37,062 bases of DNA from a virus: the IMG/VR virus record IMGVR_UViG_3300048003_000453, positions 1 to 37,062 of that record; one strand, written 5' to 3'. The translations under genes and the position numbers were made by a program. Of the stretch, positions 8,875 to 25,231 are shown in pieces; the stretch's first letter is position 1, and each line of letters begins with the position of its first letter. Under the pieces are notes generated by a model. That model worked only from the letters and a program-made list of their open reading frames with translations. It was not told the DNA's origin and did no database searches.

Positions 8875-10125
8875 ATGATACATAGCACGATTGATAAACT
8901 GATAGGCAATTTAGAGCAGGTTGTCAAAGACTTGGAAAATTTAAAAATTTCTGCTAGCGCATATGAACTAGCCTCGACGAGCGCGGAGACGAGCGCGGAG
9001 ACGAGCGCGGAGACGAGCGCGGAGACGAGCGCGGAGACGAGCGCGGAGACGAGCGCGGAGACGAGCGCGGAGACGAGCGCGGAGACGAGCGGTGGTTTTT
9101 TTTTAGATGGCTCTCCTCCATCTTGGCCAAGCTTCAAGTATCTAAAAGGGGAGATCGTAGGAAATCTGACTAAGACCCGTACAATGGCGATGGATGATAA
9201 AGGTTTCATCCACTCTCTAGGTTATAAGTCTGATATGCATATTCAGACAGACACTCTTGAGGATACTATAGAGAGGAAAGATCGGGGGTACAAAGGATTT
9301 ATTGGTAATGTAGAAGCTTCGGATGGTTATACTTATTTTTTGCCAGCATATTCTAGTTCCATAGGTAAGTTGAAAAGATCAACAGGAGAGATTACTTTAG
9401 AAAAGAAATTTAGTTCTTGTCCTCAAGTTAGGTCTGGAGCGGAGGGAGCGAATGGGATAATCTATATGCCATCTTATACTAAAACTTTAAAGATTTATAC
9501 TTTAAACACTAAGACGGGTCAGATTGGATCGTTTACTCCTCCACAACCGGGATACTTTGGCCATGTATGGGGAGCAGCAGCAGATCCAGACGGGAATGTT
9601 TATATGCCACCAGCATTAGGAAATAAAATTCTTAAGATAGATAAAAATGGCACCAGTTTCTTATTGGAGGGTAAGCCTGTCACCTCTGGAGTTTCTGGAT
9701 TTAGTGTGAAGTATGTCGGAGCTACTTATGTCCCAAGTGTTGATAAGGTGTTCTGCCTACCAAGGACGGGCAAAAAGATTTTAATTATTAATTGTGCTGA
9801 TGATAGTTATAAGGAGATTGATTTGCCAGCGGAATATTTAAAGGTGGCTAATAAAAATAAAAATTTCCACGGTTACCTCGCTCCTGACGGTTGGCTTTAC
9901 AGTGCGTTCTGGGGGGATACAAAATGCTTCAGAGTTAACCCTCTGACTCAAGAGATCCAATGGGAGGACTATGATTATCAGTTTATGGATGGTTGGCCAA
10001 CAATAAAAGAGGGTTCTGGGATAATGAGTCTTGGAACTGGTTACTCTACTTGCGCTTTGACTAAAGGTAAAGATGTCTTTCTTGGGTTGGCAGGAACCTC
10101 TAGAGCTATCAAGCTTGAGTTTTAA
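8875..10125 (+). CDS. Beta-propeller-like protein with a TSAE tandem-repeat linker
   Basis: 416 residues. A short N-terminal helix (about 1-34) is followed by a linker of nine perfect TSAE repeats, then GGFFLDGSPPSWPSF and a C-terminal domain (about 85-416). That domain has repeated blade-like units such as DDKGFIHSLGY, ANGIIYMPSYTKTLKIYTLNTKTG, DPDGNVYMPPALGNKILKID and APDGWLYSAFWGDTKCFRVN, typical of NHL/SMP-30-type six- or seven-bladed propellers. Likely a binding protein, perhaps virion-associated or secreted. The gene is preceded by TATAATATAATACT, an AT-rich -10-like box. Confidence 0.65.
   Translation: MIHSTIDKLIGNLEQVVKDLENLKISASAYELASTSAETSAETSAETSAETSAETSAETSAETSAETSAETSGGFFLDGSPPSWPSFKYLKGEIVGNLTKTRTMAMDDKGFIHSLGYKSDMHIQTDTLEDTIERKDRGYKGFIGNVEASDGYTYFLPAYSSSIGKLKRSTGEITLEKKFSSCPQVRSGAEGANGIIYMPSYTKTLKIYTLNTKTGQIGSFTPPQPGYFGHVWGAAADPDGNVYMPPALGNKILKIDKNGTSFLLEGKPVTSGVSGFSVKYVGATYVPSVDKVFCLPRTGKKILIINCADDSYKEIDLPAEYLKVANKNKNFHGYLAPDGWLYSAFWGDTKCFRVNPLTQEIQWEDYDYQFMDGWPTIKEGSGIMSLGTGYSTCALTKGKDVFLGLAGTSRAIKLEF
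8977..9090 (+). repeat. 12-bp tandem repeat, nine perfect copies plus a half copy
   Basis: The unit acgagcgcggag is repeated nine times without a mismatch, followed by acgagc. It encodes Thr-Ser-Ala-Glu in frame. It is far richer in G+C than its surroundings and uses codons (acg, agc, gcg) that are uncommon in this phage. Perfect identity points to recent expansion by slippage; changes of copy number would alter linker length without frameshift. Confidence 0.95.
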
Positions 10126-24597: not shown

Positions 24598-24679
24598 GCT
24601 TTTTCTGCATATATTTAATCTTTTTTTTTATTTAAAAAGGCTTGACATGCTGCCCTCATATGGTATAGGCGAGAGGCTT

Positions 24680-24755
24680 GTAAGTCACTAATACTCAACG
24701 AGTTACAGCCGGGGGCGACCCCCCCCTCGTAACTCCCTACCGCTCAGTGAGTTAG
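24680..24755 (-). repeat. Palindromic element E4 (76 bp), inverted relative to E1-E3
   Basis: Palindromes at 24680-24706 and 24729-24755 flank a 22-nt spacer whose reverse complement (gaggggggggtcgcccccgg plus ct) matches the E3 spacer, so E4 is in the opposite orientation. Confidence 0.85.
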
Positions 24756-24933
24756 AGCGGTTTGTATTTAAATGTTTTTATTTATTTTTTTTACCCTAAA
24801 AGGCTTGACACTCTCACTGTTCTGATTTAAAATGGTGGCATATTTCTGCGAGGGCTATGCCAGACCCACGACCCTTCCTTATTTAACGTCTTGCGGACCG
24901 CTTGACCGTGTTTATACTCACTTGACGAATTGT

Positions 24934-24999
24934 TGGTGGATGGCGGGGGGATCGAACCCCCATCCGCGACTTGCGTCCCGTCGAAACCATTGGCCACCC
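24934..24999 (-). ncRNA. Minimal tmRNA-like RNA: tRNA-like domain only, alanine-type
   Basis: 66 nt. The acceptor stem GGGTGGC pairs with GCCATCC, then discriminator A and encoded CCA. The third pair is G3-U70, the main identity element for alanyl-tRNA synthetase. After the acceptor and 4 nt comes GGTTTCGACGGG, the conserved tmRNA 5' box, at the same distance as in E. coli (5 nt) and Bacillus (4 nt) tmRNA. The T arm is GGGGG TTCGATC CCCCC. Between them, where ordinary tmRNA has P2, tag frame and pseudoknots, there is only a short stem with GCAA tetraloop (CGGGAC GCAA GTCGCG with one G-G mismatch). There is no anticodon arm, so it is not a normal tRNA, and no tag frame. It begins 7 nt after the stop of the 25007 gene, so processing from the mRNA is expected. 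Possible roles: SmpB or AlaRS decoy, inhibitor of trans-translation, or an unrelated tRNA mimic. Confidence 0.75.
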
Positions 25000-25006
25000 A
25001 AACTTT

Positions 25007-25231
25007 TTACTTGCCGTAGATCCAGCGAAGCTCATCGCTCCACTCCTTGACCATCTCAGCCTCGACCCCTTGTGGATTCTTGCAAGCTGCACCAATCCAC
25101 TTCCTGATCATGCGCTGGAGCTTCCGCATCCTAAGCCATTCACCCAAGTGAATGCCAATGGCGAAAGGGTAAGTGAGAATGAGAAGGGCTTTGCCCTTGG
25201 TGTCTTGATCTTTGAAGTTGTGTAAGTTCAT
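25007..25231 (-). CDS. Small membrane-associated protein
   Basis: 74 residues. GKALLILTYPFAIGIHLGEWL (about 12-32) is hydrophobic enough to be membrane-inserted; the rest is basic and helical (RMRKLQRMIRKW). No family recognised. It lies between the 25236 gene and the tmRNA-like RNA on one transcript. Confidence 0.55.
   Translation of the reverse strand: MNLHNFKDQDTKGKALLILTYPFAIGIHLGEWLRMRKLQRMIRKWIGAACKNPQGVEAEMVKEWSDELRWIYGK

Follow-up and report, generated by a model that had tools for sequence, protein, structure and literature searches.

A 66-nt tmRNA gene without an mRNA-like domain (MLD) is encoded on the minus strand at positions 24934-24999 of the window, that is, the whole 37,062-base stretch of DNA that was analysed. 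The gene is complete within these coordinates (nt 1 at 24999, nt 66 at 24934), and its identity as a tmRNA consisting of the tRNA-like domain (TLD) only is nearly certain. The window is an IMG/VR virus contig, a metagenomic fragment. On balance, this sequence is probably a functional phage gene that encodes an MLD-less tmRNA in one piece, and its alanylated product probably vies with host tmRNA for SmpB and for stalled ribosomes.

Structure and neighbourhood of the window RNA

The minus-strand sequence, GGGTGGC-CAATGGT-TTCGAC-GGGAC-GCAA-GTCGC-GGAT-GGGGG-TTCGATC-CCCCC-GCCATCC-A-CCA, was divided into the following parts, listed together with the ORF upstream:

24993..24999, minus strand: 5' strand of the acceptor stem, GGGTGGC (nt 1-7), with G3 of G3-U70; 7/7 pairs with 24938-24944
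24980..24992, minus strand: D-loop analogue CAATGG-T-TTCGAC (nt 8-20), the tmRNA 5' box with its GAC motif; from the RF00023 alignment
24966..24979, minus strand: P2 stem with a GNRA tetraloop, GGGAC-GCAA-GTCGC (nt 21-34); from sequence, folding and comparison
24962..24965, minus strand: GGAT (nt 35-38), counterpart of the tmRNA GGAC motif, 5' of the T arm; from the RF00023 alignment, the family consensus being GGAC
24945..24961, minus strand: T arm GGGGG-TTCGATC-CCCCC (nt 39-55); from sequence and the RF00023 alignment
24938..24944, minus strand: 3' strand of the acceptor stem, GCCATCC (nt 56-62), with U70; from pairing with the 5' strand
24934..24937, minus strand: discriminator A73 and encoded CCA (nt 63-66); from sequence
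25007..25231, minus strand: 74-aa ORF of unknown family, its stop codon just upstream of the RNA; ORF call

The features named in the original prediction (a 7-bp acceptor with G3-U70, CCA, a T arm, the 5' box and a GCAA-capped stem) were all found in their predicted places on the minus strand. The GGxTTCGAC box was present, a D stem was absent and the T arm was joined straight to the acceptor, as judged from the RF00023 (Rfam tmRNA) alignment and the family consensus. The gene order was standard, with the 5' half before the 3' half, and there was no tag frame. The box and the T arm of tmRNA are bound by SmpB and EF-Tu, and the GAC motif of the box is contacted by SmpB in known TLD structures. 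At the position of P2, a full tmRNA carries P2 and approximately 300 nt, including the tag frame; the window RNA has a 5-bp P2 stem there, with one G-G mismatch (GGGAC/GTCGC). Sequence and comparison show that the RNA folds as a tRNA-like domain in which alanine identity, the box and the T arm are kept and P2 is closed by a small hairpin.

RF00023 aligned end to end (positions 1-374) on the window RNA, with 4 nt replacing 312 model positions, which bears out the prediction that only the tRNA-like domain of a tmRNA is left. The match scored 35 bits (E 1.1e-12) in a 331-nt stretch and 43.5 bits (E 7.2e-18) in the whole record, and these E-values exclude a chance match. The RNA was detected with RF00023 only after the Rfam threshold was lowered; at the gathering cut-off of 47 bits it was missed, and only tRNA-Leu and tRNA-Met were found in the window. 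ARAGORN likewise reported these two tRNAs and no tmRNA. The permuted tmRNA model RF04321 reached only 12 bits, on a partial overlapping stretch; this score and the standard gene order ruled out a permuted, mitochondrial-type CDS-less tmRNA. The MLD of a complete tmRNA, with its resume codon, tag frame, stop codon and pseudoknots, was absent, and the 7-bp acceptor with G3-U70 and the A73 of a tmRNA tRNA-like domain were present. An intact tRNA-like domain in a record classed as virus fits a standard-order TLD-only (CDS-less) tmRNA. The single-sequence folding energy was unremarkable (z = -0.89) and uninformative; the evidence consists of the model match and the comparison with relatives.

The 74-aa ORF had no Pfam match. 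Its end also lies 5' of the RNA in most 66-nt relatives, and the two are probably co-transcribed. The record also encodes a terminase large subunit, PhoH, ThyX, a RuvB-like ATPase and, a few kb from the RNA, a GP88 family gene (PF17338; 21092-21796, minus strand). No close relative of the terminase large subunit was found among cultured phages, and BLAST with the window region found no cultured-phage relative. On the plus strand, a hairpin (GAGTTAC..GGGGGcgaCCCCC..GTAACTC) lies at 24643-24760 next to promoter-like sequences, and related GTAACTCACTGA motifs occur near the RNA in relatives. An ORF at 8875-10125 (plus strand) has a tandem SAET repeat close to its start.

The mini-tmRNA family and its conservation

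A pattern scan of IMG/VR yielded approximately 22 near-identical copies of 65-66 nt in other marine virus contigs, where the flanking sequence has diverged. In the alignment of the 66-nt group, the RNA was 95-98% conserved and the flanks mostly about 25-75%; in one lineage the flanks were unrelated. Homologues with compensatory changes, which the original prediction had proposed to look for, were found. In one lineage of three contigs, the acceptor GGGTGGC/GCCATCC is changed to GGGTAGC/GCTATCC. In other 66-nt relatives, the tetraloop GCAA is changed to GCGA, and the short-stem mismatch is repaired to G-U (GTCTC).

The family proved to be much wider than this group. The first patterns gave 94 MLD-less candidates, 3 of them false, and the first scans contained many unrelated RNAs of 65-88 nt. 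The acceptor was left unspecified in the second pattern, and the third was acceptor-aware. When the gap in the pattern was lengthened, 3 loci were found versus 81, and the acceptor-aware pattern gave at least 120 loci versus 19 in the next length class. The acceptor filter required 6/7 pairs and did not demand G-U; three loci that passed it (L037, L042 and L109) resembled tRNA or chance matches and were dropped. After filtering, at least 134 distinct MLD-less tmRNAs remained in the viral set, with a sharp length peak at 80-83 nt and a minor class of 62-68 nt, to which the window RNA belongs. In the 80-83-nt form, P2 begins directly after TTCGAC, ends directly before GGAC and contains an A-rich bulge and a small CC-loop-GG hairpin (P2b); this inner hairpin is absent from the window form. 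GG ahead of the TTCGAC box was frequent across the family but not required. The T stem of one group of four mini-tmRNAs appears to contain a bulged A.

The acceptor, T and P2 stems covaried strongly across the family. Among 95 non-redundant RNAs, P2 pairs 1-4 were paired in 98, 95, 91 and 87% versus 42-51% after shuffling (pair 1, 98% versus 43%), with all Watson-Crick types present. In 18 gapless sequences, 94.7% of cells paired, and the covariation score was 0.618 versus 0.087-0.148 with one strand slid. A covariance model of the 79-nt form (R1) was built from these 18 sequences, with the window and cultured-phage copies excluded. R1 matched the window RNA end to end at 42.1 bits (E 1.6e-7) despite the absence of P2b. 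Cultured phages outside the training set scored 52-89 bits and full-length tmRNAs 27-30 bits, with those of Phabba and Kumao below 30 bits. R1 separates mini-tmRNAs from full tmRNAs. Rfam's 47-bit gathering cut-off for tmRNA was exceeded in 31 of 37 family-bearing records.

Alanine identity was nearly invariant. Among 58 distinct RNAs with paired acceptor and T stems, G3-U70 was present in 57 and A73 in all 58, although neither had been demanded in the search. G1-C72 and G2-C71 were each present in 58/58, positions 4-7 were paired in 58/58 with several pair types, and CCA was encoded in 20/58. This pattern is evidence for selection on alanylation across the family.

Occurrence in phages and bacteria

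Copies of 81-83 nt, unannotated as RNA, were found in or beside tRNA arrays of the Streptomyces phages Shaeky, LuckySocke and pSt2308 and of Stenotrophomonas virus Jojan60. Pseudomonas SM1 and PA_L9 and Xanthomonas Rb1 gave partial matches only and no mini-tmRNA. None of the 37 mini-tmRNA phage records contained an SmpB gene, and a release-factor-like gene was found in one and in none of the other 36. A full-length tmRNA was also present in only one of the 37; that phage carries a mini-tmRNA at G033:C1:46486-46567 and a 392-nt tmRNA at 77588-77979. A GP88 gene occurs in 8 of the 37 records, a count from which no functional link is claimed; in another phage group (three contigs) a GP88 family gene lies about 130 nt after the RNA. 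ARAGORN tmRNA calls at L046 and L059 were false, fusing the T arm of the mini-tmRNA with unrelated upstream sequence. At L046:636-1124, the sequence upstream of the mini-tmRNA is structured and contains a long inverted repeat (ACACGAGGAGGAGGTT ... AACCTCCTCGTGT); this is what ARAGORN wrongly fuses with the mini-tmRNA there.

In bacterial genomes, the same pattern gave approximately 15 acceptable matches, nine of them in Ca. Poribacteria with an 86-88-nt copy. Many matches of the first pattern in Lachnospiraceae and other genomes looked like 3' ends of full tmRNAs and failed the acceptor test. The phage-built R1 scored 54-62 bits on the poribacterial copies and matched 10 of 59 genomes of the phylum; in the family of Terracoccus, it matched 1 of 100. 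At all nine poribacterial loci, the mini-tmRNA was conserved and formed a chromosomal gene of its own that converges with a PLP-decarboxylase-like ORF, and several copies had promoter-like sequence close upstream. Seven of the nine genomes also carried a full-length tmRNA (approximately 354 nt) with SmpB adjoining. A Victivallaceae copy lies amid von Willebrand-type, kinase-like and PP2C-like ORFs (identified by eye), not in an obvious prophage.

These distributions bear on the suggestion that the RNA is a deletion relic, a full phage tmRNA that lost its middle and whose remainder is drifting. A copy can indeed decay: the mini-tmRNA is intact in LuckySocke and degenerate in its close relative Alone3, with an altered TTCGAC box and a broken T stem, and can therefore be dispensable. 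The acceptor and the T-arm sequence of the poribacterial mini-tmRNAs are also found in the full tmRNA that the respective genome carries, and this group may therefore have arisen by duplication with deletion. Against such an origin in general, covariation extends to every stem in phages that are only distantly related, the lengths fall into tight groups of 80-83 nt and about 66 nt, the RNA outlasts its flanks in the 66-nt group, and the actinobacterial and Victivallaceae copies (Cellulosimicrobium, Terracoccus and Victivallaceae) have acceptors different from that of the resident tmRNA. The homologues, which might have turned out to be full-length tmRNAs, are MLD-less and covarying, and the window copy is not a local deletion. 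For the family, the relic explanation is thus largely refuted, and it is very improbable overall.

The positions of the genes in phages suggest a different alternative. In five contigs, the mini-tmRNA lies between the prohead protease and the major capsid protein, in the late operon and on the coding strand; other copies lie before a head-tail connector or near an integrase. Location between co-oriented genes, as here, would be expected if the fold served only to let RNase P and 3' nucleases bind and cleave polycistronic phage mRNAs into separate pieces. However, processing of this kind needs neither G3-U70 nor the tmRNA box nor the GGAC motif, all of which are conserved, and the poribacterial copies are free-standing, with promoter-like sequence upstream and a convergent gene downstream; this explanation is quite improbable. 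Nor was specific support found for the earlier idea of a decoy for AlaRS or RNase P: neither target would have any need of the tmRNA-specific GGTTTCGAC box or the GGAC motif, yet both are conserved.

tmRNA genes are known integration targets, and attP copies contain the 3' part of the gene. In one contig group, a tyrosine integrase lies approximately 450 nt away, as would be expected of a host tmRNA piece carried for site-specific integration. However, both gene ends are present here, mutually paired and covarying, and most copies, including that of the window, were not seen beside an integrase. An attP fragment is therefore extremely improbable.

Known message-less tmRNAs and the proposed function

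The original work on the TLD-only tmRNA of Mycobacterium phage DS6A is reportedly that of Mao et al. 2009. This RNA is tmID 11587 of the tmRNA Website and is classed as 'TLD only' (PMC4131195; PMC11915505). Judged by its published description, it resembles the window RNA in being phage-encoded and barely more than a tRNA-like domain without a tag frame, but it comes from one actinobacterial phage, whereas the family described here is far wider, has a conserved architecture of P2 or P2b and includes a lineage of 66 nt with a GNRA cap. Mitochondrial CDS-less tmRNAs (Jacob et al. 2004 and Hafez et al. 2013, as cited in PMC7050145, PMC10352661 and PMC11915505) also have a mature RNA without an mRNA-like region and keep the G-U pair and the GAC motif. 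On our reading of its counts, a 2025 census places the mitochondrial form mostly under 'permuted, no CDS', whereas the phage gene has the standard 5'-to-3' order. The census contains 9 'standard, no CDS' and 72 'permuted, no CDS' forms among 97,179, with DS6A as the named phage example (PMC11915505). It also reports two Mallomonadaceae plastid tmRNAs of approximately 65 bp without a tag frame and calls the DS6A RNA a similar form (PMC11915505); these have the size of the window RNA but are organellar, number only two and are related to ochrophyte plastid tmRNA. Among phages, the full-length tmRNAs of mycobacteriophages Phabba and Kumao share the tRNA-like domain but are approximately 400 nt long with a tag frame, and the Pelagibacter and OM43 phage tmRNAs share it but are two-piece with a tag frame. 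Contrary to the original prediction, which took the form to be undescribed, the kind is already known from DS6A, mitochondria and two plastids (PMC4131195; PMC11915505), and the window RNA is a further member. New relative to the open-licence literature are the scale, the conserved P2/P2b architecture, the evidence that alanylation is under selection, the occurrence in cultured phages and the presence of a copy alongside a full tmRNA in Ca. Poribacteria.

Published experiments with TLD molecules suggest what such RNAs might do. A crystallised T. thermophilus construct consisting of the 5' 25 nt, UUCG and the 3' 34 nt binds SmpB (PMC3929946); it is nearly of the design and size of the window RNA but artificial. 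With SmpB, the TLD mimics tRNA, and a TLD fragment has been observed on the ribosome with SmpB and EF-Tu (PMC3929946; PMC3968760). TLD-SmpB gains entry to stalled ribosomes, and polyalanine is synthesised in the absence of mRNA when a TLD fragment is combined with SmpB (PMC3929946). In E. coli, a DS6A-like TLD molecule strongly inhibits tmRNA, charged or not, perhaps via SmpB titration (PMC4131195; PMC11915505), so the blocking of host rescue proposed originally has a published precedent.

We infer from these TLD experiments, which support it, a mechanism of interference with host rescue. The phage RNA would be trimmed like tRNA and alanylated by host AlaRS, and host SmpB and EF-Tu would bind it; none of the examined phages encodes SmpB. 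It would then take the place of host tmRNA both on SmpB and in the vacant A site of stalled ribosomes. Since it has no tag frame and no stop codon, it could not complete trans-translation; nascent-chain tagging should consequently fall during infection, and release from stalled ribosomes would be left to other factors. The position of some copies, between capsid genes or in tRNA arrays, fits other roles.

The published inhibition is independent of alanine charging, so simple SmpB titration leaves the conserved alanine identity unexplained. Because G3-U70 and A73 exceed what titration needs, the charged form is probably used, and it probably matters; besides titrating SmpB, the RNA may accept the nascent peptide and thereby add alanine. 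A reading built on this step alone is tag-less rescue, in which the charged RNA with SmpB would take the peptide and add one or more alanines, ArfB-type release would follow and phage proteins would be spared degradation. The conserved alanine identity is consistent with it, as are the polyalanine synthesis by a TLD fragment with SmpB (PMC3929946) and the mitochondrial CDS-less tmRNAs, which coexist with SmpB and are thought to assist with incomplete mRNAs (PMC11915505). However, the lack of a release-factor-like gene in 36 of the 37 phage records speaks against it, and it is judged unlikely. Competition with host tmRNA for SmpB and stalled ribosomes is the preferred reading. More broadly, and only tentatively, phages, like a small number of bacteria including Ca. 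Poribacteria, may use alanylated message-less tmRNAs that, with host SmpB, take over the nascent chain on stalled ribosomes and give tag-less or alanine-extended products; this possibility, which is somewhat doubtful, would be a distinct RNA-based control of rescue and not a passive SmpB sponge.

In the window RNA, the TLD construct of structural biologists has an equivalent that occurs in nature, and the mini-tmRNA family makes the importance of tmRNA in infection testable. At least 134 distinct virus-contig sequences, together with the cultured Streptomyces and Stenotrophomonas copies and the poribacterial chromosomal form, versus 9 in the census, would raise the form from a curiosity to a common means by which phages work against, or through, ribosome rescue.
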